DNA from: a virus
IMG/VR virus record: IMGVR_UViG_3300042731_011625
Location: 1-38,282 of that record
Direction: 5' to 3' (one strand)
Length of the DNA: 38,282 nt
Each line of letters starts with the position of its first letter. The stretch's first letter is position 1. The translations under genes were made by a program, and so were the position numbers. Of the stretch, positions 2,547 through 25,111 are shown in pieces. A model generated the notes under the pieces. It worked only from the letters and a program-made list of their open reading frames with translations. It did no database searches and was not told where the DNA came from.

Positions 2547-2640
2547 TTGGGGTGGCGCTGCGCGCAGATTGGGGCCGGAACCAGAACTGCGGCCGTCGCG
2601 CTGCTTTCAGCGCATCGGTCAACCCGATTGGAGGCTGGTC

Positions 2641-5600
2641 ATGACTCGGCTCAACCTGCGTGCGTCCCTGAATCACTTTGGTGTGGTCGCGGTCCTGCTG
2701 GCATTGCCGTCCGCGGCGCGCGCCGACCAGATCCTGGAGATCCACAACGACTCGCTGACGACGTATCTGCCGTCGGCCAAGTCGAGCATCCAGGACATCC
2801 GGCCACTGGTCGACCAAAGAGGCGTGAACATTGATGGCGCCGTCTACCAACCGGGGTCGATGCGGCTACACCGCGGCGGGGGAATGCCTTTTACTCCGTG
2901 CGATGAGGACTTCCCGGACGCAGCGTATAGCCTGCCTCCGTCCGGGGGGAGCGCTTCGAGACACAGGGGCCTTGCGAACATCGATCTATTCACCGGGGCG
3001 ATCGTGGTCAACGAGGTGGACCTCAGCTTCCCGGCCCAGGTGCCGTGGCGCGTCGGCCGCAGCTACAACAGCCGCCAGAAGGACAGTGGAGGGTCCTACT
3101 ACGCCAGTAGCGGCTACCAGGGCCGGAACTGGTTCCAGAGCTCCCAGCCGGAGCTGGTGTTCTACGACTCGCAGACCGACTCGGAGGACACCGTCTACCT
3201 GATCTACGGCGCGGACCGGTTCCTGGAGTTCAATCGGGCCGAGGACGGCCAGCAGCAGCCCAGCGACGACACCTTCAAGGCGATCAACGGGGCCGCGGGG
3301 GCGATCCTGATCACGACCGACGCCCAGGGCCCGGACCTGGCTACGTACTACGATCCGAAGGGCTACCGGGCAGTCTTCTTCTGGTTCGACGACGCCGACA
3401 TCGATGACGACATCGAGGGCTCGATCTGGAAGGTCGTGGATCCGGACGGCAACGCGGCGTACGTGGGCCACGAGACCAACGCCTCCACGGCCTTGAGTAG
3501 CGGCTACGACGCCACGACCGGGGCAATTACGACGGCGTACGACAGTGTCGGGAGGCGGTTCACGTACACCTACACCAGCGGGATGCTGACGGAGGTGAAG
3601 GCCGAGGACACGCCGGGCACGTGGAACGAGGTGGGCAAGGTCCAGTACAGCTACTACGTCGCCGCGGACTCCCACGGCGAGGACGACGACCTGGAGCTGG
3701 TGACGATCACGACCCCGCTGACCGACTCGGGGGTGTCACTGGTCCGCAAGAAGTACTACTGGTACTACGAGGGCACGTACCACGCCACGAACAACCCCGG
3801 CTACCACCATCAGCTGCAGTACGTCATCGACTTCGAGGGCTACCGGAAGTACGACTGGGACCAGGACAGCAGCCTCGATGACGATCCCCAAAGCGCGGCG
3901 GAGAACGATCTGAAGGGCTATGCGAGCGCCTACTTCGAGTACGACACGGACCGGCGGATCGTCAGCGCCTGGTTCAACGGGGCCTGCGGCTGTTCCGGGG
4001 CGGCCACAGGGACGCACACCTTCGAATACGAGTCCAACGGCAGCTACACGGATAACAGCGGCTACGACACGACCTGGAAGTCGCGGACGATCGTCAGGAA
4101 GCCAGACGTGACCTACAACGCCTCGGCCATTGAATCGTGGGTGACGCAGTACTTCGACGAGGTCGGCCAGCCGTTGCATCGGGTCCATACGAAGCTGGAT
4201 CCCGACAATACGAGCGAGAACCAGCAAGTCTGGGCCACCAAGGTCACGCGCAACTCTGACGGCCAGATCACGGACATCCACTCGCCGGCCAATGTGACGG
4301 CCTACACCCACAGCACGGCGTCGTTTACGACCTCGACCAGTGCGGGCCTGGTGACGAGCTTCACCCGGGTGAGCTCCGGGGACATGAAGGGCTTCCTGGA
4401 GGACACCAAGCACAAGAAGGGCACCAGCGGCAGCGCCTACCTGGACGGGACGGTGGAGTACACCTCAGCCACCAAGACCGTGGGCGACGTCACGATCACC
4501 CGGCCCCTGGTGAGCTCCCGGTGGGTTTACAGCCAGGAGACGACCACCGAGAAGGACAGCAGCGGCGACGAGACGACCATCAGTTACACGATGTGGACCG
4601 GCGACGCCGCCCTAATGCCCAAGCAGATCACCACGACCCATCCGGCCGTGAGCACCTCGAAGAACGGATCCGGTTCCGCCACCAGCTCGAAGCGCTACCT
4701 GCGCAAGGACGGCACGACGGCGTTTACCGAGGCGGCCGACGGCGTCTTCACCTACACCCAATACACCGACGGCCGGCTCGTCAAGCGGATCGACGACGCC
4801 CAAACCAATCATGGTTCAGACTTCGCCACCGGGGACGACCCCAACACGGATTTCGGGATCACCGAGACGAGTGACGGGGTGCGTCGGATTACAACTCATG
4901 CCTACGACGACCAAGGACGTTCGGACACGGTCACCCAGAGCGACGGCCGAGTGCTCAAGCGCTACTACTCCAAGCTCGCCGACAGCCGGCAGGTGACGCT
5001 GGGCTACAACGACTACGACTCGTCGCCTTTGAAGTTCTACGGCCCGGTCCAGTACGGGGTGGCCAACCACGCGGGCCGGACCGAGGTCCAGGCCACGGTG
5101 GCGCTGACCAACAATATGTCCCAGACGGCGCTGACCAGCCACGTGGACGAGACCGACAGCGACCCGATCACGGCCATGGACCTGGGGACGGTCGCGCAGA
5201 TGACGGTCAGCGTCTACGACGAGACCGGCGGCGTTCTCGAAGAGAGCCGTCCGTACTTCGACGTTCCCGCCTCCGGCGCGGGCACCGAGGGAACCCACTA
5301 CGACGCGACCTCCTTTGGGTACGACGACCAGGGCCGGCGCGTGCGGACCAAGGCGCCCCACGGCACCATCACCCGCACCGACTACGACAGCCTGGGCCGG
5401 ATGGTGCGGCAGTGGGTCGGGACCAATGACAAGGACTTCGAGGACGGCGAGAGTTCCGGCACAGACAACATGGTCAAGACCGTCGCCAATGAGTACGACT
5501 CGGGCAGCGACAAGGCCAACAGCTACCTGACCAAGCGGACGCTGTACGTCCGGGATTCCGACACGGGTAAGCGGGAGACCACCTTCAGCCACGACCTGCG

Positions 5601-8600
5601 GGGTCGGGTGTTGCTGCAGACCAACGAGCATGCGCCTCACCCCTTCAACAAGTACGACAACCTGGGGCGGCTCATTGCCTCGGGGCAATTCAGCTCGACA
5701 GCGAGCATCGTCGTGGGCACCGATGATCCGACCACGGAAACCACCAACCGTCTGGGCCTCAGCCAGAGCTTCTATGACGAGATGGGACGGGTCTGGAAGA
5801 GCCAGCGTCACCAGGTCGATGACGCGGACGGCTCGGACGACGACAACCTTCAGACGCTGACGTGGTATGACGAAGAAGGCCGGGCCATCAAGGTCGAAGG
5901 GGGCCAGCTGACCAAGACCTTCCACGACCGCCTGGGCCGCCAGACCCACCAGTTCATCCTCTCTGACGACAACGACACCGGCTACTCCGATGCCGACGAT
6001 GTCTCCGGAGATCACGTGCTTCAGGAGCGCCAGACGGTCTACGAATCCACCGACAGCGACGACGTCGTCATGACCGCCGTGATCGACCGCTATCACGACG
6101 ACTGGAGCATCGGCGGCACCGAGACCAAGGGGGCGCTGGACACCAACGCCGACAACGACGACCTGAAGTACACCGCCGCCAATCTCGAGGGCCGCATCCA
6201 GCTCACGGCCCAGTGGTACGACCGGTTCGGACGGGTGACAGACACAGTGGCCTACGGCACCTACGGCGGCAGTGACTTTGACCGCGACGGCCTGTCGGTG
6301 CCGACGCGGTCGGATACAGCCCTGCTCACCGAGTACGAGTACAACACCGATGGCACGCTGAAAGAGACCGTTGATCCGCGGAACCTCAAGACCCGCCACG
6401 GATACGATGACGCCGGCCGCCAGACCAAGGTGGTCAACAACTACACGGACTTTACCCCCAGCGCGGACACGGACCAGACCACCAAGTACGAGTACACCGA
6501 CGGTCTGCGCACCAAGCTGATCGCCGATCTGCCGGCGGGCCAGAACGACCAGGAGACGGTCTACACCTACGGCACCACCAAGGGCGCCTCGGCCGGTGAC
6601 TCCAAGATCGCCACGGGGCATCTGCTGCAGAAGGTCCAGTATCCCGACTCTTCAGGCGGGACCGACGTGGTGACCTTTGCCTACAACGCCCAGAGCCAGC
6701 AGATCTGGACCAAGGACCAGGCCGGCAACGTGATCGAGACCGATTACGACGACTCCGGGCGGCAGACCCACCGCCGGATCACGACGCTGGCCAGCGGCTT
6801 CGACGGGGCCGTGCGGCGGATCAGCACCACCTACGACAACCTCGGTCGGCGGCAACTGGTCACCCAGTACGACAACGCCACCGCTGGCTCGGGCAGCGTG
6901 GTGGACGAGGTCAAGTACACCTACGAGGACTGGGGGAACCTCGAGAAGTTCGAGCAGGACCACAACTCGGCAGTCGGCGCCAGCGGCTCCGTGGATGACT
7001 ACCAGGTCAGCTACACTTATGCCAAGGCCACCGGTGGCCGCAACACGATCCGTCGTACCGGCCTGACGCTGCCCGACGGCACCTCCGTCACGTACATCTA
7101 CCGGGACTCCAACCGGCTGGATGCCGACGCCAGCCGGGTGACCCAGGTTAGGGTGGGCAGCACGACCGTGGCTGACTACTCCTACAACGGGGTGAGGCAG
7201 GTGGTGGGCATCAACTACCCGGAGCCGGACGTGATGTCGGAGCAGTTCGGCTCGACCTCGGGCAGCTACCCGGACCTGGACCGGTTCAACCGGGTGACCT
7301 CCAGCCGCTGGACCAAGGATCTGGCCACGGACCAGGACTTCTACGACTTGGACATCAGCTACGACCGCAACTCCAATATCACGCTGGCCGAGGACAACGT
7401 CCACGCGGGCTTTGATGTGGACTACACCATTGACAGCCTCAACCGGCTGCGGCAGGCCGAAGAGGGCACCTGGAACGGCTCGTCCATCACCAGCCGGACC
7501 CGCCAGCAGATCTGGGAAGACACCTCCGGCAACCTCGGTCTGGACCTGGTGGGCAACTGGGATAACGTGCTGCTGGACCTGGACGGGGACGGGAACTTCA
7601 CCGGGACCGATGAATACAAGGACGACCGCACCCACAACGACGGCAACGAGCTGTCGGGGCGCGACACGGACAACAGCGGGTCTGACGACTTCACACTTAC
7701 CCACGACCAGGTCGGCAACCTCACCGACGACGGCGAGCACTACGAGTACGAGTATGACGCCTTCGGCCGCCTGCGCAAGGTCAAGGACACCGGTGATCAG
7801 AGCCTGGTGGCCGAGTACACCTATAACGCTCTGGGCTACCGGATCGGCTGGCACTACGACGTGGATGCCGACGGGACGGTCGAATCGAGCAGCGACGACC
7901 CGTGGTACTCCTTCGCCTACGACGAGCGGTGGCGGATCGCGGCCACGTTCCGGGCTGACGACAGCGATCCCAAGGAGCAGTTCGTCTACCACAACGCGGG
8001 CAATGACGGTCGAGGCGGAAGCTCCTACATCGACACGGTCATCCTGCGGGACAAGGACGCCAACACCGCCTGGGACACCGAGGCAGACGGCACGCTGGAG
8101 GAACGGGTCTACTCCTGCCACAACTGGCGCAGCGACGTGGTGGCGCTGGTGACCGACACGGGCCAGCAGGTCGAGCAGGTGCGGTACTCGGCCTACGGTG
8201 TGCCCTTCGGGCTGCGGGCGGGCGACGTGGACTCCGACGGGGACGTGGACAGCACGGACACAAATCAGATCCAGACCTGGATTGACGCGTCGGCCTATGA
8301 TGTGCGCGGGGATCTGGATCTCGACGGTGACGTGGACACGACGGACAAGTCCGCGGCCAGCGGCAACCTGGGCAAGTTCGGCTGGGGCGTGCTCTCAGAC
8401 GTCGGCAACCGCAAGGGCTACGCCGGCTATGAGCTGGATGACGCGCTGGCCGACTCGTACCGGCTCTGCCATGTGCGGCGCCGCGTGCTCAATGCTGATC
8501 TCGGACGATGGCTTAGACGTGACCCACTTAGTTTCGTCGACGGAATGAACCTGTACAGCTACGCAAAGCAGAATCCCCTTCGGTATTCTGATCCCACGGG

Positions 8601-9174
8601 CCTAGAACTCATAGCCACCCTCATCGACAGTGATGTAGGCAGTTGCGGTGATGCGCACTGTACGTGGCGCATACAGAAGGACCCCCTGATTCACGATTGT
8701 CAATCCACGTTGGTGTTTGTTGCTCTCGTGCTCTGGACTGACACCTGCCGTCTCTGTGATCATCCGTGGACATCAACTCAGAAGGAATTCTACGAGGCGT
8801 TCATCATCGATGTTGACGCCGACCCCACCCCTTTGATTGTGGACACGTATGGCTACGGCGAAAAGCCCAAATCAAAGGGAGGATGGATCGCCGATTCGGA
8901 AACGTGGTTGTTCTGCCTGGACGATATCGGGGCTGACGAGTTCCTATCGTTTGGCTGGAATGACACTATTCATGTGGAGACACCGTGTGGGGACTACGAT
9001 ATTGCTACCGCGCCTTTTACGCACGAGGTTGTCGAGGGTGAGCTACCGCCGCAATGGTGGCCCTCGAAGGCAATGGATGGGCCGGTAGACCGCAGGGCGA
9101 CATCAGCCCATTATTGCTGCGACTGTGCGAATAATGATCCGACTGTGGCAACGTGCACTCCGCCCGGGCCCTAG
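2641..9174 (+). CDS. RHS/YD-repeat protein with dockerin-like block and variable C-terminal tip
   Basis: The 2177-residue product starts with a signal peptide (cleavage near PSAARA, residue 28); the ATG at 2641 is chosen over the upstream in-frame start at 2569 because it directly precedes this signal. The bulk is made of YD repeats, seen as recurring lines such as YDDQGRRVRTK, YDSLGRMVRQW and YDDAGRQTK, which in the family build a hollow beta-cocoon around a C-terminal payload. Near residues 1861-1905 two calcium-loop lines (DVDSDGDVDSTD and DLDLDGDVDTTD) form a dockerin-like pair. The conserved RHS end motif (GRWLRRDPLSF ... NPLRYSDPTGLE) lies near 1955-1990. About 185 residues follow as a Cys-containing tip with no domain I recognise. 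Base use becomes less GC-rich from about 8500 onward, as expected if the tip was exchanged. A toxin role is inference. Confidence 0.9.
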   Translation: MTRLNLRASLNHFGVVAVLLALPSAARADQILEIHNDSLTTYLPSAKSSIQDIRPLVDQRGVNIDGAVYQPGSMRLHRGGGMPFTPCDEDFPDAAYSLPPSGGSASRHRGLANIDLFTGAIVVNEVDLSFPAQVPWRVGRSYNSRQKDSGGSYYASSGYQGRNWFQSSQPELVFYDSQTDSEDTVYLIYGADRFLEFNRAEDGQQQPSDDTFKAINGAAGAILITTDAQGPDLATYYDPKGYRAVFFWFDDADIDDDIEGSIWKVVDPDGNAAYVGHETNASTALSSGYDATTGAITTAYDSVGRRFTYTYTSGMLTEVKAEDTPGTWNEVGKVQYSYYVAADSHGEDDDLELVTITTPLTDSGVSLVRKKYYWYYEGTYHATNNPGYHHQLQYVIDFEGYRKYDWDQDSSLDDDPQSAAENDLKGYASAYFEYDTDRRIVSAWFNGACGCSGAATGTHTFEYESNGSYTDNSGYDTTWKSRTIVRKPDVTYNASAIESWVTQYFDEVGQPLHRVHTKLDPDNTSENQQVWATKVTRNSDGQITDIHSPANVTAYTHSTASFTTSTSAGLVTSFTRVSSGDMKGFLEDTKHKKGTSGSAYLDGTVEYTSATKTVGDVTITRPLVSSRWVYSQETTTEKDSSGDETTISYTMWTGDAALMPKQITTTHPAVSTSKNGSGSATSSKRYLRKDGTTAFTEAADGVFTYTQYTDGRLVKRIDDAQTNHGSDFATGDDPNTDFGITETSDGVRRITTHAYDDQGRSDTVTQSDGRVLKRYYSKLADSRQVTLGYNDYDSSPLKFYGPVQYGVANHAGRTEVQATVALTNNMSQTALTSHVDETDSDPITAMDLGTVAQMTVSVYDETGGVLEESRPYFDVPASGAGTEGTHYDATSFGYDDQGRRVRTKAPHGTITRTDYDSLGRMVRQWVGTNDKDFEDGESSGTDNMVKTVANEYDSGSDKANSYLTKRTLYVRDSDTGKRETTFSHDLRGRVLLQTNEHAPHPFNKYDNLGRLIASGQFSSTASIVVGTDDPTTETTNRLGLSQSFYDEMGRVWKSQRHQVDDADGSDDDNLQTLTWYDEEGRAIKVEGGQLTKTFHDRLGRQTHQFILSDDNDTGYSDADDVSGDHVLQERQTVYESTDSDDVVMTAVIDRYHDDWSIGGTETKGALDTNADNDDLKYTAANLEGRIQLTAQWYDRFGRVTDTVAYGTYGGSDFDRDGLSVPTRSDTALLTEYEYNTDGTLKETVDPRNLKTRHGYDDAGRQTKVVNNYTDFTPSADTDQTTKYEYTDGLRTKLIADLPAGQNDQETVYTYGTTKGASAGDSKIATGHLLQKVQYPDSSGGTDVVTFAYNAQSQQIWTKDQAGNVIETDYDDSGRQTHRRITTLASGFDGAVRRISTTYDNLGRRQLVTQYDNATAGSGSVVDEVKYTYEDWGNLEKFEQDHNSAVGASGSVDDYQVSYTYAKATGGRNTIRRTGLTLPDGTSVTYIYRDSNRLDADASRVTQVRVGSTTVADYSYNGVRQVVGINYPEPDVMSEQFGSTSGSYPDLDRFNRVTSSRWTKDLATDQDFYDLDISYDRNSNITLAEDNVHAGFDVDYTIDSLNRLRQAEEGTWNGSSITSRTRQQIWEDTSGNLGLDLVGNWDNVLLDLDGDGNFTGTDEYKDDRTHNDGNELSGRDTDNSGSDDFTLTHDQVGNLTDDGEHYEYEYDAFGRLRKVKDTGDQSLVAEYTYNALGYRIGWHYDVDADGTVESSSDDPWYSFAYDERWRIAATFRADDSDPKEQFVYHNAGNDGRGGSSYIDTVILRDKDANTAWDTEADGTLEERVYSCHNWRSDVVALVTDTGQQVEQVRYSAYGVPFGLRAGDVDSDGDVDSTDTNQIQTWIDASAYDVRGDLDLDGDVDTTDKSAASGNLGKFGWGVLSDVGNRKGYAGYELDDALADSYRLCHVRRRVLNADLGRWLRRDPLSFVDGMNLYSYAKQNPLRYSDPTGLELIATLIDSDVGSCGDAHCTWRIQKDPLIHDCQSTLVFVALVLWTDTCRLCDHPWTSTQKEFYEAFIIDVDADPTPLIVDTYGYGEKPKSKGGWIADSETWLFCLDDIGADEFLSFGWNDTIHVETPCGDYDIATAPFTHEVVEGELPPQWWPSKAMDGPVDRRATSAHYCCDCANNDPTVATCTPPGP

Positions 9175-11377: not shown

Positions 11378-12430
11378 TCAAAGGTGACCCACCCCGCTCG
11401 CGCCGCCGCTGGGGCCGCTTTGCCCGCTGCTGCCGGGGGACGCCGAACCCGAGAAGCTTGAACCGCTCGACTTGCTGCTGCTGCTCGATGACGAACTGGA
11501 CGAGCCCTCGGAAAATGACCCTCCGGTTCTCGACGCATCATTGTGGGTCCAGGCTCCGTCGGCCAGAAAGGTGTTCGTGCCAGGCACATGGAGGCGCACA
11601 GTCCGCACGGGGGCGTCAGCGCGCTCAAGCGACACGATTGGCTCTTCGTCAAGCTCACCGGCGACGAAGGTGATCAGGTAGTCGCCGACCTGAAGCAGCT
11701 CGGCGGAGCAGAAGCCCCAGGCGTCGCCACGGCGGGCGAGGAACGGATGCTCGAAAGTCGCCTTGATCCGACCGTTGATCACGAAGAACCCGTCATGCTC
11801 GCCGAGGCGCACCTCGGCGACGCGCGCTTCCCGCAGCGTGGTTCCGGCCAAGCCCCAGGTGGACATCCAGTCGTACTGAGCCTTGAACGGCACATCCGTC
11901 CTGAGGCCGCAAATCGAGAGGGACCGGACCATGTCACCGGGCGAGAGCGACTCGATCGGCACGCGGCGGCCGTCGGCCAGGGTGACCAGCGTGCCGTAGA
12001 GCAGGCAGTTGCTAGAGCTTGAGCTGCTGCTGCCCGAGCCGTCACTGGATGAGCCGCTTGCGCTCGGAGTGCCTCCGCCACCCGACGTCCCGCCGCCCGA
12101 GGTTCCGCCGCTGCCGGTGGACGATTCACCCCCGCTACTCGACGAGCCTCCACCGCCGGAGGAACTGGCGCCGTCCCCACTGGACGAGGGCGTGCCCTCG
12201 GTGCTGCTCATTGACGAGGAATTCGGCGGCCCGCTGGACGAACCACCGCCGCCCGTACTCTGGGAGCTTGAATCAGTATCTGTAGAATCTGGCGTACCGG
12301 CGGTCTCCGTGCTGCTGTCAGTCGGACTCTGGCTGCTGCTGAGGCTGGACGGATCGCTCCCCGCCGGCTGCTGAGTCGTCGCCCAGACGGGGATGTAGAG
12401 GAAGTACTTGGGGCCGCTGTCGCTACTCAT
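11378..12430 (-). CDS. Ser/Gly-rich tail-end protein with Hint (intein-like) domain
   Basis: The ATG at 12430 overlaps the upstream stop by ATGA; the longer open frame upstream is coding for another gene. The 350-residue product has three parts. Residues 1-20 are a short ordered start. Residues 21-140 are very low complexity (Ser, Gly, Thr, Pro). Residues 142-297 form a Hint fold: Cys142 opens the domain (CLLYGTLVTLADGRRVPIE), Thr225 and His228 give the block B TxxH pattern (TFEHPF), and it ends LADGAWTHN with His296-Asn297. A second Ser/Gly-rich tail of 53 residues follows. The residue after Asn297 is Asp, not Cys, Ser or Thr, so canonical splicing is not expected; this resembles bacterial intein-like domains that cleave or splice unusually. 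The position after the tail genes suggests a fibre or virion-surface protein, which is inference. Confidence 0.8.
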   Translation of the reverse strand: MSSDSGPKYFLYIPVWATTQQPAGSDPSSLSSSQSPTDSSTETAGTPDSTDTDSSSQSTGGGGSSSGPPNSSSMSSTEGTPSSSGDGASSSGGGGSSSSGGESSTGSGGTSGGGTSGGGGTPSASGSSSDGSGSSSSSSSNCLLYGTLVTLADGRRVPIESLSPGDMVRSLSICGLRTDVPFKAQYDWMSTWGLAGTTLREARVAEVRLGEHDGFFVINGRIKATFEHPFLARRGDAWGFCSAELLQVGDYLITFVAGELDEEPIVSLERADAPVRTVRLHVPGTNTFLADGAWTHNDASRTGGSFSEGSSSSSSSSSSKSSGSSFSGSASPGSSGQSGPSGGASGVGHL

Positions 12431-13293
12431 GAATACCACCCCTTCGTGTCCACGTGCTTGGCGCACTCTGCCGACGCCCTTTCGACGGCCTGCTCGTAGG
12501 GCATGTGCGCAAAGGCAGTCAGGCCGCGTCCTGGCGTGCAGTTCCACACGCTGAACCGTGACCGCTTGAAGTAGCCCCGCATCGCCTCGAAGCGCCGGTT
12601 GAGTGACTCAAAGAGCACGTTGTTGTGGCGGATCGCTGCGGCGCTACGGTCCTCGTCGAAGGCGTACTTGCGGTCGTCAGACATCCGGAAGTCCGCGCCG
12701 AGCAGGTACACGGCCCGGAAGCCCAGGTAGTGCAGCAACCGTAGCGCCACCATCATCACGGACCGCTTACCCTTGATGCCCAGGGAGTCCTTGGTCGCGC
12801 TGCTGTTGCCCCAGCAGACGGCGTCCTCGTCGAGGAACCGCCGGTGGTCAAAATGCTCGCTGCGTCGGTAGAGCAGCACGGAGGGCATCTGCTTCACCCG
12901 GAAGGCGCTGGGCCTCATCGTGCCGTCGGACTTCTGGATGCGGAGCCGGGCGTTCCAATTGGCCATCGGCACGAACTTCAGGATGCCTGGATCCTTCCAG
13001 CCAGTGTCGATAAAGCGGCCCGGCGAATCGACGCACGTCCACAGCGTCGGCCGGTGGACGGACCAGGAGTTGTTGACGCCCATCGTCACGATGCCGCGCT
13101 TGTTGAGCAGGGTCAGGTCGTGCTCGGCGAGCGACGGGCCGGAGAGGACCAAGAAGGCCTGCCGGCCCCGGTAGAAGTCGCACAGCGAGACGCTGTCAAA
13201 ATCGGTCGTGTAGAGGCGAAGGCCGTTTCGCGCCAGCCGCCTCAGGTGCAGGCCAGCCTGGAGGGCCGCGATGTCACCGTCGTGGTCACGCAT
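12427..13293 (-). CDS. DUF115/MptE-like phage protein
   Basis: The 288-residue product opens its core with FLVLSGPSLAEHDLTLL followed by a beta-strand and VNNSW, the nucleotide-binding-like pattern of the DUF115 family (motility accessory factor and MptE-type pterin pyrophosphokinase relatives). Later lines include a strand-helix LGFRAVYLLGADF. DUF115 members act on nucleotide-linked small molecules or sugars; the substrate here cannot be read. The ATG at 13293 overlaps the methyltransferase stop by 8 bases and its own stop overlaps the Hint gene by ATGA, so the three are one translational unit at the end of the tail operon. A role in modifying virion or host surface glycans is possible but unproved. 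Confidence 0.6.
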   Translation of the reverse strand: MRDHDGDIAALQAGLHLRRLARNGLRLYTTDFDSVSLCDFYRGRQAFLVLSGPSLAEHDLTLLNKRGIVTMGVNNSWSVHRPTLWTCVDSPGRFIDTGWKDPGILKFVPMANWNARLRIQKSDGTMRPSAFRVKQMPSVLLYRRSEHFDHRRFLDEDAVCWGNSSATKDSLGIKGKRSVMMVALRLLHYLGFRAVYLLGADFRMSDDRKYAFDEDRSAAAIRHNNVLFESLNRRFEAMRGYFKRSRFSVWNCTPGRGLTAFAHMPYEQAVERASAECAKHVDTKGWYS

Positions 13294-13828
13294 GCCACGC
13301 CCCCACGATGTAGCGACCGGCCGACTCGACCGCACCGACCCTCGAGATGCGATCGACCCACCAGTCCAGAGGCCGGACGGTGGGATGGAGGTTCTGGCTC
13401 TTTACCGTGATCCGGCTCGGGCGCGTGCAGATCGAGAAGATGAAGCGCCCACCCGGTCGTCCGATGCGCCGCATCTCGGCCAGAGTCGGATCGACATCCT
13501 CCGGCAGCAGGTGCTCCAGGGCGTCGAACGAGGTCACGACATCCGCGATCCCGCCGGCCAAGGGCACACAGTGCATCGGCGCGGCGATGTCGGCCTCGTC
13601 GTTCGCCCAGTCGATCCCGAGGCCATCCACCCCGCGGCGGCGCAGTTCGCGGACACAGTCATTGCGGCCGCAGCCGAAGTCCACGATGAACCGCGGCTGC
13701 CAGGAGAGGACGAGCGCGTAGGCATGGCGGCCGTGGTTGGTCCCGCCGTAGCCCCTCGGCGCCAGCGTCAGATACTTGCGGCGCTCCGCCTCCCTGCGCT
13801 GCTCCATCGTTGCAGTCGCCTCAGCCAT
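13286..13828 (-). CDS. class I SAM-dependent methyltransferase
   Basis: This 180-residue protein has the class I methyltransferase core: FIVDFGCGRND is motif I, the acidic GLGIDWAND after the second strand should hold the ribose of SAM, and VTSFDALEHL is the motif IV region with the EHL triplet frequent in small-molecule and glycan methyltransferases. It is short for the family, with little room for a substrate domain. It has no DPPY motif, so a DNA-base methyltransferase is unlikely. It overlaps its neighbours by 8 bases at each end. The closeness to a DUF115-like gene suggests both act on the same surface or sugar target, which is inference. Confidence 0.8.
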   Translation of the reverse strand: MAEATATMEQRREAERRKYLTLAPRGYGGTNHGRHAYALVLSWQPRFIVDFGCGRNDCVRELRRRGVDGLGIDWANDEADIAAPMHCVPLAGGIADVVTSFDALEHLLPEDVDPTLAEMRRIGRPGGRFIFSICTRPSRITVKSQNLHPTVRPLDWWVDRISRVGAVESAGRYIVGAWHA

Positions 13829-14828
13829 ACCAGCCCTCCGGCACCTGCATGTCCGACAGGACGACGGGGTTCAAAGCCTCAAAGACGAATCGCGTCTCGC
13901 CTCGTAGCGTCCGCTCGGCCCGCAGCTCAACGACGACGCCCTCGGGGATCGGATGGAGCAGGGGGACAGCCGCCCGCCGCGGCGGGCAGTGCTCGAGTGG
14001 CCCGGGGGTGATGCACGCCCCAGCCCGGGCGAATCCCTCCGTGCCCCCGGCCTGCGGGTGCATCACCGGAAGGTGGGCCTCGTAACGGTTGAACGCCAGC
14101 CTGGCCGGATGGCCCGCCGAGGTGAGCCAGCCCTCCGCCGCGGCGCCGCTGGGCCGCACGTACTGGCCGAAGCTGAAGCTAAACGGGTCGGCGTCCAGGC
14201 GGACCTCTTCCCACTCGTAGAGCCAGCCGAACGTGCGGCCGTCGATCAGGTGCCCTGGACCCAGCCGCGCCGCGAAGCGGTCGCGATCGGCCGGGCCGAT
14301 CTCGACCACCGCCAGCTTCTGGCCCGTGCCCGGCTCCTTCCAGAGGATGCGGGCGGCGCCGGTGAAGCCGCTACGGAGCAACTGCTCGTTGGGGTACGTG
14401 TCGGCGTGGCCGTGCTCGTTGTCGGTGACGTTCACCATGGCCGCGGTCACACCGCGGACCACGGCCAAGCCGATCCGGCCCGACGCGATGGGCTCCCGGG
14501 CCACGACGAACCGCCCGACGTACTCATCGGTGGCCGTGATCGCCGCGCCAATGACGGCGGCCCGGCGCTTGAACTCGTCCTCGTTGCCCTCGGTGCCCGG
14601 CTCGACGATCGGACGAGCAATGCCGAGGATGCCGAATCGCGGCAGGTCCTCGCCCGAGTCGTTCCGCACGAGGACGAGGTGCTCCTGGGCTGCCGTAAGT
14701 GGAGGGGCGCGGAGCGCGTCGGGATCGATGCGCCGGGCCAGGTGCGCCGCGTCGATGAAGGCGTTGTACGCGGCCGCGGGGATGCGGAGCGGATCGCCGG
14801 TTCGGACTTTGCGGAAAGGATCGGCCAT
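13821..14828 (-). CDS. tail-cluster protein of unknown function
   Basis: The 335-residue product opens MADPFRKVRTGDPLRIPAAA, a start I associate with hypothetical proteins near the tail end of planctomycete phages. The body is beta-rich, with strands such as RIGLAVVRGVTAAMVNV and several aromatic residues, as in tail accessory or distal-tail proteins, but no named domain is recognisable. There is no signal peptide or membrane segment. It starts 3 bases after the upstream gene and overlaps the methyltransferase by 8 bases, so it is expressed with the late operon. A virion role is likely from position only. Confidence 0.6.
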   Translation of the reverse strand: MADPFRKVRTGDPLRIPAAAYNAFIDAAHLARRIDPDALRAPPLTAAQEHLVLVRNDSGEDLPRFGILGIARPIVEPGTEGNEDEFKRRAAVIGAAITATDEYVGRFVVAREPIASGRIGLAVVRGVTAAMVNVTDNEHGHADTYPNEQLLRSGFTGAARILWKEPGTGQKLAVVEIGPADRDRFAARLGPGHLIDGRTFGWLYEWEEVRLDADPFSFSFGQYVRPSGAAAEGWLTSAGHPARLAFNRYEAHLPVMHPQAGGTEGFARAGACITPGPLEHCPPRRAAVPLLHPIPEGVVVELRAERTLRGETRFVFEALNPVVLSDMQVPEGWYG

Positions 14829-15641: not shown

Positions 15642-17993
15642 TCACGCGAACGCGAGTCCTCCGCTGAGCGCCGCATCCATGAGGCGCTTGGTGTTGCGGG
15701 CCGTCTGCTCGGTCGCCTTGGCGGTCCGCTCGGCGTCGTCGGAGGCCCCGGCCAGCCCCAGCACGGCGGCCGCGTTGAAGGTGCCGCGAACCTCGACCCC
15801 GCGGCTGAGGACATCGCCGAGGCCGGCCAGGCGGTCCTCAAACTCGGCCAGCAGGTCCTGGTGTGAGCGGGGGGCGCCCGGCTCGGCCGACTCGGCCTCC
15901 TGCCGCCCGCGCCTAGCCTCGGCGATCGCCTCATCGAGGCGGCGCTTGGCTTCCTCCAGCTGCCGCTGCGTCCGGGCGATCTGGGCGTCGGTGCCGCTGC
16001 CGAGGCGTTCCTGGGCCTCCTCGAACTGCCGGCCGATCTCGGCGAGCGTCGCCTCGTTGAGCTCGGTGGCCCTTCGGCGGTCGCGCTGCCGGCGGGCCTC
16101 GCGGGCCTCCAGGTCGTGCTCTGCGCCCTGCTCGAGCTCGACCAGGCGGGCTTCGAGCTGCTCATCCACCTGCCGCTTGGCAGCCTCGACGTTCAGGGAC
16201 GAATCGAAGAGGCCCTGAATCTCCAGCATCCGCTTGGCAACGAAGGACGTCGCCTTCTCCCAGATCTTCATGAAGCCGCTGGTGAACCGCGTCCAGGTCT
16301 TGGAGAGAAACGCCGTGGTCTCGATCCAGGCGACCTCCAGCGCATGCCAAGCCTGTTGGGCGGCGGCAAGCGCGCCGAACCACATCTTCTGGGCCGTCGT
16401 GACGAAGAAGTTGCGGGCGGTGAGCCACACCCCGTTGAGCGCTGCCACCCCCTGCTGCCAGACGAGCTTGAGCGACAGCCATAGGATCTGGGCCGCCAGC
16501 GCCACGTCGCCGGCGGCCAGGGCATCCGTGATGCCCTCTACCACCTTGCTGACCCGATCGCGCAGGCGGCTGAACTGCTCCGAGAGCCAGGCCAGCGCCT
16601 CGCCCGCCGCGCCGCTGGAGATGAGCACGGCGCCGCCGAGTGCGACCATGGCCGCGACCACCAGGCCGATCGGGGAAAGCAGCGCCCCGATGGCGGCGGT
16701 CACGGCAAGGAACGCCGCCTTGACGCCGGCCAGGATCGTGCCGAGGCCGCCGATCACGAACGCTGCGGCCTGCGCCGCCACACCCAGGACGACGAGAGCC
16801 GCGCCTACGGCCCCGAGGGCAGCGATCGAGGCGGCGGCGATGACCACGACGGATCGGTTCTCGCGGACCCACTGGGCGATCGCGGCGCTGGTGCGGGTGA
16901 TGAAGTGGGCCGCGACCCGTAGCGGGCCGGACAGCGATTCGCCGATGGCGATGCCGAGCCCCGCCAAGGCACTTCTGAGGATGATGACCTGGCCCTTGAG
17001 GGTGTTGAGCTGGACGTCGGCGATGCGGGCTGCCGTGCCGCCGGCGTCGCGGAGGGCCGCGGTGTAGTCTCGCAGCTTGTCTGCGCCCTGGGAAAGCAGC
17101 TCGGCGACCCCGGCCGCTTGGCGGGCCTGGAAGATCGTGCCGAGGACCTCCAGACGCTCGCCCGCCCCCATGCCGGCCATGGCGCGGTTCATGTCTTCGA
17201 TGATGTCCGCCAGTGGCCGCACGTCGCCCTGGGCATCCAGCACGCTGACGCCCAGCTCCTTGAGCTTGTCGGCGGCCTGCTTGCTGGGGCTCGTCAGGGC
17301 CAAGATGGCGCCCCGCAGGCTCGTGCCGGCCATCTCGGCCTGGATGCCTGCATTCGAGAGCAGCTGGATGGCCGCGACGATCTCCTCGAAGGCGATGCCG
17401 GCGCTCTTGGCGATCGGGCCGACGAACTTCATGGCGTCGCCGAGCTGCTGCAGGTCCGTATTGGCGGTGGTCATCGCCTTGGTGAGCACGTCCACCGCCT
17501 CGCCGAGGCGGTCGGCCTCGATGCCCATGCCAGCCATGATCTTGGCGGCGATGTCGGCGGCCTGGGCGATCTCCAGCTGGCCCGCCGCGGCGAGGTTCAG
17601 GGTGGGGCCGATGGCCTTGAGGATCTGCTCGACATCGAAGCCGGCTAGGGCGAAGAAACCCATCGCGTCGGCGGCTTGACTCGCCGAGAACACGGTCGAT
17701 TCGCCGAGGCGCTTGGCCTCATCGGAGAGGCGCTGGAAGTCCTTCCCCGTCGCGCCCGTGAGCGCCTGCACACGGGCCATGCTCTGCTCGAAGTTGGCGA
17801 ACACCGTGCTACTGAGGGCAAACGGCGCGGCGGCGACCGCGCTGGCGACCACGAGGCGCTGGCCCATGGACCGCACGCCCTCACCGAAGGCCTTCAGCCG
17901 CCGTTGCGCGGCCCGCAGACCCGCCGTGAGCTTGTCGCTCACGCCCAGTTCCACGAACGCCCGACCCGCCCGGATGCCGCTGGTCTTGGCCAT
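15642..17993 (-). CDS. tail tape measure protein
   Basis: The 783-residue product has the TP901-type tape-measure core: FANFEQSMARVQALTGATG, then LGESTVFSASQAADAMGFFA and DVLTKAMTTANTDLQQLGDA in the first 220 residues. A hydrophobic block (about residues 385-470) has several potential membrane-spanning helices, as is usual for proteins that leave the tail during DNA ejection. A charged coiled coil (about 605-700) follows. Tape measures set tail length at about 0.15 nm per residue in known siphoviruses, so a tail near 115-120 nm is expected by inference. A GGAG site lies about 9 bases before the ATG. It lies downstream of the tail chaperones, as usual, with two further small genes placed between them. 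Confidence 0.92.
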   Translation of the reverse strand: MAKTSGIRAGRAFVELGVSDKLTAGLRAAQRRLKAFGEGVRSMGQRLVVASAVAAAPFALSSTVFANFEQSMARVQALTGATGKDFQRLSDEAKRLGESTVFSASQAADAMGFFALAGFDVEQILKAIGPTLNLAAAGQLEIAQAADIAAKIMAGMGIEADRLGEAVDVLTKAMTTANTDLQQLGDAMKFVGPIAKSAGIAFEEIVAAIQLLSNAGIQAEMAGTSLRGAILALTSPSKQAADKLKELGVSVLDAQGDVRPLADIIEDMNRAMAGMGAGERLEVLGTIFQARQAAGVAELLSQGADKLRDYTAALRDAGGTAARIADVQLNTLKGQVIILRSALAGLGIAIGESLSGPLRVAAHFITRTSAAIAQWVRENRSVVVIAAASIAALGAVGAALVVLGVAAQAAAFVIGGLGTILAGVKAAFLAVTAAIGALLSPIGLVVAAMVALGGAVLISSGAAGEALAWLSEQFSRLRDRVSKVVEGITDALAAGDVALAAQILWLSLKLVWQQGVAALNGVWLTARNFFVTTAQKMWFGALAAAQQAWHALEVAWIETTAFLSKTWTRFTSGFMKIWEKATSFVAKRMLEIQGLFDSSLNVEAAKRQVDEQLEARLVELEQGAEHDLEAREARRQRDRRRATELNEATLAEIGRQFEEAQERLGSGTDAQIARTQRQLEEAKRRLDEAIAEARRGRQEAESAEPGAPRSHQDLLAEFEDRLAGLGDVLSRGVEVRGTFNAAAVLGLAGASDDAERTAKATEQTARNTKRLMDAALSGGLAFA

Positions 17994-21639: not shown

Positions 21640-23664
21640 TTATTCGCCCTTCATCTTCACGCCGCCGCGCGGCTCCTGCTTGGCCACGCCGAAGTCGTGG
21701 TAGCCGCGCATCTGGATGCCGAGGGTGTTGAAGTCAGCGTCGGCGCTCTCGACAGTCGGCTGCTGCTGGCCGTTGAGAAACGCGACCTCGATCACCGGCA
21801 TGTCGGCCGGGTCTGCCAGCACATACCACGCCTTGCCCGAGTGGCCCGTGTACTTGGGGTTGCTCAGGTAGCTCGACCGCACGGGACGGAACTTGCCCGC
21901 GTGCGGGTTGGCGACGGGCGTCTTCTTCGTGGACGACGGGTCGCGCAGCTCGGTCGAGTTCATGATTTGCGCTGCCGGCACGTAGAGGGCGTTGGGCACG
22001 AGCAGGACGGCCGGCGCGACGGCCAGGGGATGGCCGTCCGGGTCGGTTTGGTCCAGGAACACCTGCTCCGCCTGGGTCAGGGCGTCGATCCCCAGTGCCG
22101 TCTCCGGGCCCTCGGCGTAGTTCCTGTTGGCGGGCGTGAAGAACGCCGCGTTGTTGAGGAACTCGCCCCAGAACACCTCGTTGAGCTTGAGCGCCCCGCC
22201 GCGGCCGAGCCGCCGCGGGACGGCCGTCAGCGCGTCGAGGTCGTCGTTGATAAGGTCGCGCCGGTCGATTCCGAACATGCGGCCGTAGGTCTTGGCCTGG
22301 TTGGTGTAGGCGGTCTCGCCGGCCGTGGTGTGTTTGAGCTCGCCGCCGGGCGGGACCTCCTCGTAGACGAAGCCGCCCGTCAGCGAGTAGCTGCTGACCT
22401 GCTTGAAGTCCCGCACCGACCGGATGGCGCCGATTTGCCGCCAGGTCGATTCGACGGCGTCAAAGCCGGCCCGCAGGAACTTGTTGGCCACGTTGCTGAG
22501 GATGCCCGGCAGGCTCAGGGTGCTGAAGGCGGAGCCCTGCACGTCGGCGAACGCAAACTGCAGCAGGCCCTTGAGGTCGCTGCGGCCGAAGCCACGGTAG
22601 CCGTTGGCCTGGGCGAAGATGAGTAGCGTCTCGCACAGGCCCAGGCCATTGCGGTACTGGTGGTTGGCCGTGTCCAGTGCCTGCTCGGAGAACTGCGCCT
22701 CGAGCACCGGTCGGTCCAGGCCGCCGGCCATGCACAGGGCGGCCTCGATCACCGCCCCCTCGATGCGGTCGTCCTGCCGACGCGGGGTGGCGACGCCCTC
22801 AAAGTTGCGGCCCAGTCGCATCACCTCCAACTGGTACTTGTCCGGCTTCCAGCCGGCCTCCAGGGCGGCGTGGGCCAGCTTGCCCAGCTCGTCGGCCAGC
22901 TCCGGCCGCTGGGCGAGGATTTCCGCCGTCATCTCCTGGATCCGCTGGCGGCGCTCGGTCTCGGCCCGGGCCCGGGCCGTCATCAGGTCGATCTCGGCGG
23001 TTGGATCGCTGGGGGTGAACGTGACCTTGCCTCGAGCCGGCGGCGTCGGCTCGGGCTTGGCCTCGTCGGTGGTCGGCGTCTCGTCGGTCGCCGCCGCGTT
23101 CTCGTCGGCCATTACCGTGTTCTCCTGATGCTGAGCGGCGATCTTGGCCCGCGACTGCTGGTCGGCGCCAAGATCGACGAAGCTGATCTCATTGAGCGTG
23201 GTCCGGTGGGCCACGTAGATCGGGCCGCTGAACCTGCGACCGTTCACGGTCACCGCGACGTCGCCCTTGATGAACTCGATCTCGTCGACGGACGCCCCAA
23301 TCGACGCCTGCCAGGGGAAGCCCTTCTTGCCGCTGACGACGACCTCCCTGGCTGCTCGCGTGTCGCGCGAGACGACGCCCTCGGCCACGAGCTTGCCATC
23401 TTCGATGGCGATCCGCTCGGTGTGGCCCACGCCCTCGTACGCCGAGTGCTGGAACCGCACCGGCCGGCGCTGGGCAGGGATCGTCATCCCCTCAAGGTTG
23501 ACGACGACCGGGTACCCAAAGCCCAGCGTCTGGATCGCCCCACCCGTGTAGGCGACGATCGAGAACCTCGGCAGCCCCGGGGCGGTCTCGCCGTCCCGGG
23601 CCGGGGCCGCGGCCTCGATCGTGACCTCACAGGCCAGGGCCAGGATGTCAGGCGTCTTGGTCAT
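21640..23664 (-). CDS. prohead protease-major capsid protein fusion
   Basis: The start at 23664 has a GGGAG site before the ATG and overlaps the portal gene by 17 bases; the upstream in-frame start falls deep inside the portal gene. The 674-residue product has two functions. Residues 1-190 are a prohead protease: the RFQHSAYEGVG line supplies the candidate catalytic His, and FPWQASIGASVDEIEFI the candidate Ser, as in HK97/herpesvirus-type proteases. A Pro/Glu-rich linker with a coiled segment (about 190-300) could serve as a scaffold. From about 350 on is a Mu gpT-like major capsid protein (AFSTLSLPGILSNVANKFL, then FVYEEVPPGGELKH). Self-cleavage would release the coat protein. No separate scaffold gene exists. 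Confidence 0.85.
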   Translation of the reverse strand: MTKTPDILALACEVTIEAAAPARDGETAPGLPRFSIVAYTGGAIQTLGFGYPVVVNLEGMTIPAQRRPVRFQHSAYEGVGHTERIAIEDGKLVAEGVVSRDTRAAREVVVSGKKGFPWQASIGASVDEIEFIKGDVAVTVNGRRFSGPIYVAHRTTLNEISFVDLGADQQSRAKIAAQHQENTVMADENAAATDETPTTDEAKPEPTPPARGKVTFTPSDPTAEIDLMTARARAETERRQRIQEMTAEILAQRPELADELGKLAHAALEAGWKPDKYQLEVMRLGRNFEGVATPRRQDDRIEGAVIEAALCMAGGLDRPVLEAQFSEQALDTANHQYRNGLGLCETLLIFAQANGYRGFGRSDLKGLLQFAFADVQGSAFSTLSLPGILSNVANKFLRAGFDAVESTWRQIGAIRSVRDFKQVSSYSLTGGFVYEEVPPGGELKHTTAGETAYTNQAKTYGRMFGIDRRDLINDDLDALTAVPRRLGRGGALKLNEVFWGEFLNNAAFFTPANRNYAEGPETALGIDALTQAEQVFLDQTDPDGHPLAVAPAVLLVPNALYVPAAQIMNSTELRDPSSTKKTPVANPHAGKFRPVRSSYLSNPKYTGHSGKAWYVLADPADMPVIEVAFLNGQQQPTVESADADFNTLGIQMRGYHDFGVAKQEPRGGVKMKGE

Positions 23665-25111
23665 CGTCTCCCACCTCGGCACTGACCGCGGCCTCCTGGC
23701 CCGCCGGTGCAATGCCCAGGTCGTCCATGAGCTGCCGTTCCTTGGCGATCTGGCGCAGCTCCGCCTCCCAGTCCAAACCTTGGCGGGCGTACTCACGGGC
23801 GAGCGACGTCGTACGGCTGGCCAGCCGTGTCGCCTGCGCGTTGGCCTCCTTGGCCGGATCGACGTGCTCGTTGCCGTCCCAGAACCACTGGTGGGTCCGC
23901 GGGGCGCCGCGCATCCGCATCAACTGTGGCAGCAGGCCCTCGACGAGCACGGCCTCCTCGAGCCAGGCGTCCAGAACGCGGTTCAGCACCACGCGCTCCA
24001 GGTGCGCCTGCTCGATGCGGATGCTCTTGAAGTAGGTCTGGTGGTCGAGCCTTCCGGAGGCGTAGTTGTAGCCCGAGGAGTTGCCCGCCGCGACGTTGTA
24101 CGGCATGTTCAGGCAGCGGGCGATCTCGTTGAGGATCTCGCGCTTGAACTCGCCGTAGGTGGTCGAGGGCTGCTCGGCGTGGACCTGCGACATCTTCCAG
24201 CCGCCGGGCATGGTCAGCAGCATCCGCTGCTCGAGCTCGATGACGTCCATCGGCTCCACGGCCTCCGCCTCGCCGTGGGCGGGGGCGTCGGTGTAGAGCA
24301 CGCCCGCGAAGTCGGCCGCGGTCTCGGCGGCGCTGATCACGGCCAGCGTGAAGCGACGCAGCTGGGCGAAGAGCGGTAGCGCCGGCGTGATGTCCGGGAT
24401 GCCTCGGCTCTGCCCGGGCCGGTCCACCCGGAAGTAGTGGACCATGAGCCGGGCCGGGATTCGGTCGTATTCGAGGTTGGACAGCCAGCGGAGGTCGCCC
24501 GGGTGTTGCTTGAGGACGTGGTACTCGAGTGGGTTGCCGAACTGGTCGAAGACGATCCCGTCGATGGCCCGGGGCTCGTTGAAGGGCAGGTCGGGGGTGG
24601 CAACCTGGTCGGCCTCGATGACGCGGAGGTCGAGCTGGACGGCCGACGGCTGCTTGGGGTTGCGGGCCAGCAGCAGGAACGCCTCGCCGGATTCGGCCCG
24701 GGCCATGCGCACGGTTCTGAGCTTGGCCGCCAGGCCGGCGGCCCGGGCCCAGTCGCCGAAGGCCAGTTCGATCCGGCGGTCCGCCTCGGCGTCGCCGGTC
24801 AGCATCTGCAGCCGCGGGCCCGTCCCCACGACATCGTTGGCCAGCGTCGAGACGATCCCGCGGGCGTAGCTGTTGTTGGCGACCTCGTACCGGGCCCGGT
24901 TGCGCAGCTCCCGCCGGACCTCAGGGCTGGCCGCGGCATCGGCGCTGAGGGCATCGGCGTTGGCCCAGTGGCGGCGGTTCCCGTCCGTGGTCACCGCCGC
25001 GTCGTACCGGGCTCGCAGCACGCGACGAAGCGGCCCCGCAACCGTCGCGTTCCGCTGCGTGTCGCGGCCGGGCGCGTCCTTGCGCCGAGATGGACGGAAG
25101 AGTCCGAGCAC
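23648..25111 (-). CDS. lambda-type portal protein
   Basis: The 487-residue product has the pattern of lambda gpB-type portals: an early AARYDAA-like line, RARYEVANNSYARGIVSTLA, DVVGTGPRLQ, the clear GEAFLLLARNP and later IPARLMVHYFRVDRPGQSRG and CLNMPYNVAAGNSSGYNYAS. Portals form the dodecameric ring through which DNA is packaged and ejected. The start is a GTG (25111) two bases after the upstream stop. The length is near that of lambda gpB (533). The C-terminus is intact. Confidence 0.92.
   Translation of the reverse strand: MLGLFRPSRRKDAPGRDTQRNATVAGPLRRVLRARYDAAVTTDGNRRHWANADALSADAAASPEVRRELRNRARYEVANNSYARGIVSTLANDVVGTGPRLQMLTGDAEADRRIELAFGDWARAAGLAAKLRTVRMARAESGEAFLLLARNPKQPSAVQLDLRVIEADQVATPDLPFNEPRAIDGIVFDQFGNPLEYHVLKQHPGDLRWLSNLEYDRIPARLMVHYFRVDRPGQSRGIPDITPALPLFAQLRRFTLAVISAAETAADFAGVLYTDAPAHGEAEAVEPMDVIELEQRMLLTMPGGWKMSQVHAEQPSTTYGEFKREILNEIARCLNMPYNVAAGNSSGYNYASGRLDHQTYFKSIRIEQAHLERVVLNRVLDAWLEEAVLVEGLLPQLMRMRGAPRTHQWFWDGNEHVDPAKEANAQATRLASRTTSLAREYARQGLDWEAELRQIAKERQLMDDLGIAPAGQEAAVSAEVGDDDQDA

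Follow-up and report, generated by a model that had tools for sequence, protein, structure and literature searches.

We find that a phage of a family of planctomycete (pro)phages ends its tail module with an appendage protein that carries an apparently active, type-A-BIL-like Hint domain between two Ser/Gly-rich arms. According to our leading but tentative reading, the domain's thioester is resolved by cleavage, most likely with transfer to Lys320 in the C-terminal arm. The parts of this reading differ in strength. Self-processing by the Hint domain is likely, and a conserved lysine motif behind it is probably its functional partner; lysine transfer as the outcome lies between doubtful and tentative. 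An earlier note on this DNA had proposed the active Hint domain from the letters of one genome. The lysine motif, a near-invariant Asn before the domain, natural Hint-less alleles, and the match to a BIL with a lysine-acceptor precedent go beyond it.

The window, the whole 38,282-base virus record analyzed here, contains in its right part the structural module of a tailed phage, encoded on the minus strand (Table 1). The Hint gene reads from an ATG at 12430 to a stop at 11378, and its ATG overlaps the TGA of the preceding gene (ATGA). After the tape measure gene, the module encodes a 268-aa protein, a 335-aa tail protein (tail335), a methyltransferase, an MptE/CST-I-like protein and, last, the Hint protein. 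The fused protease-capsid gene is a single 718-aa frame that combines the head maturation protease with the major capsid protein. The left 11 kb of the window would appear to be host flank; a 2,201-aa YD-repeat protein encoded on the plus strand (2569-9174), with a dockerin-like repeat pair near its end, adjoins the phage module and is probably a host protein.

Table 1. Features of the Hint gene, its product and the surrounding phage module in the window
Feature	Position	Strand	Remark
Portal	23648-25111	minus strand module	
Protease-capsid protein, fused	21640-23796	minus strand module	
Tail tape measure protein	15642..17993	minus	tail module marker
Tail protein, 335 aa (tail335)	13821..14828	minus	type II: N-half carries arm-Hint-arm cassette
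Class I methyltransferase	13286..13828	minus	type I form only
MptE/CST-I-like protein (glycosyltransferase-like)	12427..13335	minus	separate-head (type I) form only
Whole Hint gene	11378..12430	minus	350 aa plus stop
Conserved head, residues 1-25 (KYFLYIPVWATTQQP)	12356..12430	minus	common to all type I proteins, Hint-bearing or Hint-less
N-terminal Ser/Gly arm, residues 26-140	12011..12355	minus	length and sequence vary freely
Asn141 (-1 residue)	12008..12010	minus	Asn in 75/77 relatives, Ser in 2/77
Hint domain, residues 142-297	11540..12007	minus	
Cys142 (Cys1)	12005..12007	minus	predicted N-terminal thioester nucleophile; invariant
Thr225-x-x-His228 (block B)	11747..11758	minus	T and H invariant
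His296-Asn297 (block G)	11540..11545	minus	predicted Asn cyclization site; invariant
Asp298 (+1 residue)	11537..11539	minus	variable in relatives
C-terminal Ser/Gly arm, residues 298-350	11381..11539	minus	70% S+G, one Lys
Motif KSSGSSF, residues 320-326	11453..11473	minus	Lys320 = proposed acceptor

The composition of the protein bears out the two Ser/Gly-rich arms described in the earlier note: Ser and Gly make up 59% of residues 1-140 and 70% of residues 298-350, as compared to 14% of the domain between them. The residue positions given there, Cys142, Thr225/His228 (TFEH), His296-Asn297 and Asp298, are exact. The window protein matches no Pfam model at its gathering cut-off, and neither the protein nor its domain finds anything above a curated cut-off in Pfam, PHROGs or NCBIfam; the Hint domain alone scores 15.3 bits against Pfam Hint_2 (cut-off 28.4), and its best PHROG is a jumbo-phage virion protein (phrog_38766). 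An AF2 model of residues 142-297, built from 36 relatives, has a pLDDT of 93.8, and a Foldseek search with this model returns BIL and intein structures first (E about 1e-8). Using VIA-align, the model superimposes on BIL2 of Tetrahymena (6y75) with Z 20.4 and 1.3 A over 132 residues, placing model residues 1..158 on chain residues 0..144. In this register, Cys1 falls on Cys1, N157 falls on N143, and the +1 residue is aligned as well. The Clostridium thermocellum BIL (2lwy) follows with Z 18.5, and it comes first when the family profile is compared with PDB sequences (E 1.4e-7; the next is an intein, 1.5e-4). The modeling and both structural comparisons agree with the earlier assignment of a Hint/intein-like domain.

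The earlier note pointed to other planctomycete phages as the place to look for the same arrangement, and a scan of viral contigs and GTDB genomes found it at 38 loci, with more in further genomes. The genome matches are nearly all from Planctomycetota, mostly Phycisphaerales; three copies lie in one bin named Nevskiales, possibly through an error of binning. Of 298 genomes of the class, about 18 carry close relatives, and a phylum-wide draw under a strict cut-off gave 7 of 392. None of the isolated phages in INPHARED has the 335-aa tail protein, and consequently there is no ready model phage. We left out one frameshifted copy (L047/L165) as a broken or mis-sequenced gene. Genome G183 holds a decayed remnant, a chromosomal Hint fragment (L087/L193) next to an integrase-like sequence.

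Free variation of the catalytic residues in homologues, which the earlier note named as the outcome that would count against it, is not what we found. All 77/77 non-identical proteins keep Cys1, Thr, His, His and Asn, the Hint domain has a dN/dS of 0.04-0.33 and is thus under purifying selection, and judged from these sequences the arrangement exceeds chance, being kept across loci with invariant residues. The same five residues support the earlier statement that the domain looks active. A Hint domain that is inactive and kept only as a structural module of the tail is highly improbable given this invariance, and decayed copies look different, as the G183 fragment without Cys1 and His-Asn illustrates. 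The -1 residue is Asn in 75 of the 77 proteins, indicating that the N-terminal junction is itself constrained; as a speculation, this Asn might cyclize on its own thioester. The +1 residue varies (D 69, T 4, Q 2, Y 1, S 1 among the 77 non-identical proteins; Ala in L007, L018 and L026), in keeping with the earlier observation that Asp298 is not a splicing nucleophile.

We now turn to the chemistry that these residues would allow. Cys142, aided by Thr225 and His228, would take over the bond to Asn141 as a thioester. Asn297, with the help of His296, would cyclize and cut the C-terminal junction. Because Asp298 at the +1 position is not a nucleophile, canonical splicing would be unavailable, and the thioester would instead be resolved either by hydrolysis, releasing the N-terminal arm, or by an amine. 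The favored amine is Lys320, within the KxSGSS[FML] motif of the protein's own or a neighboring C-terminal arm docked on the Hint domain. The product would be Ser/Gly arms joined by an isopeptide bond with the Hint domain removed, amounting to an ATP-free welding or cross-linking of tail arms after synthesis or assembly. We infer these chemical steps, as well as any docking beyond the contact predicted below. We also count against this explanation that five of the 77 relatives have Thr or Ser at +1.

The cassette occurs in two architectures. In type I, that of the window, the tape measure, p268, tail335, methyltransferase and MptE-like genes are followed by a separate protein with a short head (YFLYIPVWATT), a Ser-rich and then Gly-rich arm, the Hint domain and the C-terminal arm. 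In type II, the methyltransferase and MptE-like genes are absent, and it is tail335 whose N-half runs into the arm-Hint-arm cassette. This fusion supports a tail location of the cassette and, together with synteny, sustains the earlier placement of the Hint protein in a tail-end (tail-tip) module. Whether or not a Hint is present, the separate-head form comes with the MptE/CST-I-like and methyltransferase genes, which the fused form lacks; the products of these two genes may modify the Ser-rich arms. At four loci (L019, L042, L043 and L045), two adjacent genes encode the tail domain in halves, each of which ends in its own arm-Hint-arm cassette; around positions 6300-8600 of these loci, a GGAGG precedes the start of the second gene, right at the stop of the first.

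Five complete alleles (L101, L109, L119, L135 and L152) lack the Hint domain, although they share the head and the neighboring genes and have similar arms. A different segment, SDSFxxxLTLGSxGTIxxTTxTIGTSSDSFTGT, stands in place of the Hint domain and motif. The conserved peptide ALGxxAxxFIEGGMEGVPPAxWQ ends the C-terminal arms of these alleles and of many Hint-bearing proteins (L020-L025, L027, L037). These alleles bear on splicing through a non-nucleophilic +1 residue, as proposed for type A BILs (PMC4031507), where the freed alpha-amine of Asp298 would attack the thioester to give one continuous arm. Alleles with the same head and a similar C-terminal tail are what such splicing would resemble, but their different segment means that they are not a clean spliced form, and the lysine motif would be left unexplained; we consider this outcome quite unlikely.

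The C-terminal arm holds the conserved lysine motif. Its seven residues, K-x-S-G-S-S-F/M/L (also written K-x-S-G-S-S-(S/A)-F/M/L), are found in 76/77 C-terminal arms, 17-54 residues after His-Asn, as compared to 2.5% of shuffled arms. The sole arm without the full motif is a short one behind a Hint domain, where only EKSSGAG is kept. In alignment A3, the K, S, S and S of the motif are invariant, and the arm's columns outside it vary. The Gly and Ser codons of the motif vary synonymously, indicating a constraint on the protein, and we reject a DNA-level signal on this ground; two of its Ser positions stay within one codon box, a sign of common descent. Where two cassettes lie in tandem, the motif occurs once per cassette. 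Phages without the methyltransferase and MptE-like genes (type II) keep the motif, and we therefore reject a role tied to these genes.

Where the Hint domain is absent, the motif is absent as well. It is missing in all five complete Hint-less alleles (Fisher p 2.8e-7 for co-occurrence, which overstates the evidence given the small number of alleles and their relatedness). In a tree of the neighboring tail gene, which includes three truncated loci of unknown state and leaves out L101, the Hint-less state needs two changes; the association is thus not just one split, in what is a small sample. In an AF2 model of the Hint domain plus arm, the linker (162-179) and the end (189-191) fall below pLDDT 50, and the motif block (181-190) has a mean pLDDT of 71 with a strand bridge at S184. 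The motif is accordingly predicted to dock on the Hint domain, bearing in mind that a conserved stretch can raise pLDDT without true binding. The arms in general use Lys more than Arg, and the conserved Lys may serve binding rather than chemistry.

A binding role is part of one competing explanation, in which the domain performs plain type-A-BIL cleavage at its N- and C-terminal junctions, chiefly through thioester hydrolysis and Asn cyclization. The C-terminal arm and the Hint domain would then be trimmed off the tail protein during maturation, and the motif would be no more than a clamp, for docking or regulation, keeping the junctions in position or slowing the processing down. Plain cleavage is the reported default behavior of type A BILs (PMC4031507), and it is consistent with conserved catalytic residues beside a variable +1 and with a docking that a model predicts. 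By itself, however, it does not explain the invariant Lys or the fixed -1 Asn, and we regard it as a serious but rather unlikely account. We give a similarly low weight to the full proposal that the Hint domain and its linear lysine tag weld tail arms by isopeptide bonds, without ATP or another enzyme. If true, one movable arm-Hint-arm-tag cassette would encode a cross-linker of virion appendages that removes itself.

The acceptor could also lie outside the virion. Hedgehog transfers its N-domain to cholesterol, and by analogy a host-surface amine or hydroxyl might capture the thioester or freed acyl end and anchor the phage, making the protein a covalent adhesin. The long flexible arms at the tail tip suit such a role, and virion structural proteins of unrelated jumbo phages likewise terminate in Hint domains. 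However, the protein has an internal candidate acceptor motif linked to its Hint domain, no host target is known, and His-Asn is invariant here, whereas the Hog domain is not known to have a C-terminal His-Asn. We consider a covalent adhesin improbable.

Phage tail proteins that end in a Hint domain were already known; what appears to be new is the arm-Hint-arm-tag cassette, together with its co-inheritance. The papers on phage Hint domains that we consulted describe inteins in terminase or nucleotide-metabolism genes, and we found none on the planctomycete-phage family. What BIL domains are for is still largely an open question; in this family, a viral tail module has one of them fixed, consistently with the same lysine tag. 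Natural Hint-less versions are available for comparison, and the purpose of a BIL domain thus becomes directly testable. If the lysine is the acceptor, the cassette would be a compact, genetically encoded, ATP-free ligation module with a seven-residue acceptor tag, and a new phage route to build or alter covalent tail structures.

Comparison with known systems narrows the class of the domain. Polymorphic-toxin PT-HINT domains share the fold and active residues, with weak Pfam hits; we rejected a toxin, as no toxin domain follows the Hint and the C-terminal arm is 53 residues of mostly Ser and Gly. Class 1 mini-inteins (e.g. Ssp DnaB) share the fold, Cys1, TxxH and His-Asn; this class was rejected because it requires Cys, Ser or Thr at +1, where the window protein has Asp298, and there is no conserved extein insertion site, the flanks being of low complexity with no clean empty allele. 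A Hedgehog (Hog) domain was set aside on account of the invariant His-Asn. On planctomycete chromosomes (L088, L090, L094 and L091), two or three back-to-back Hints in one protein are joined by only K-G or K-G-G-G, and the junction HN|KG|C... makes the +1 residue a lysine; in the complete ones, a membrane-anchored, putatively Tim44-like part follows the Hints.

Among known phage Hints, C-terminal ones occur in Erwinia and Dickeya jumbo phages (Alexandravirus, Snuvirus), where they belong to virion proteins, and in those of phage NCTB ('contains intein domain'). They share the position at the C-end of a tail or virion protein, behind low-complexity or collagen-like repeats; phrog_38766 matches 32/36 members of our family, and in a tree the jumbo-phage Hints and this family group together, separated from three cellular Hints (98/97). 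Unlike it, they have C-terminal tails of about 3-10 residues, without the KxSGSS motif and without the -1 Asn, and their identity to it is only about 27-32%. A scan of the viral contigs with the NCTB Hint gave no match. Jumbo-phage virion proteins at L048, L049 and L182-L185 combine collagen-like repeats, a C-terminal Hint and a short Lys-containing tail (HN|TDIVAKAEKK), and the tail-fibre cluster of NCTB encodes three Hint proteins, including a degenerate one.

As far as its sequence tells, the Hint of the window fits the type A BIL domains (e.g. C. thermocellum, 2lwy). Shared characteristics include the Hint fold in register, Cys1, TxxH, the C-terminal His-Asn, a variable non-nucleophilic +1, the lack of an endonuclease and fast-evolving flanks. 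Type A BILs form an N-terminal thioester and cut their C-end by Asn cyclization, mostly yielding cleavage and some ligation (PMC4031507). Particular to the phage Hint are its setting in a tail protein between Ser/Gly arms and the near-invariant -1 Asn, and we found no report of an associated C-arm Lys motif for type A BILs. The best structural match, BIL2 of the Tetrahymena BUBL1 locus (6y75, 6tmm), is reported to end with its N-flank in an isopeptide bond to a lysine, and the authors speculate that the C-flanking ubl5 supplies a nucleophilic lysine positioned at the N-junction (PMC8616854). The flanks of BIL2 are ubiquitin-like domains with the acceptor in a folded domain, whereas the phage offers a short linear motif in a disordered arm. 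By this analogy, the planctomycete-phage family may conserve a BIL2-like layout, with a possible acceptor lysine behind the Hint domain on a flexible leash.
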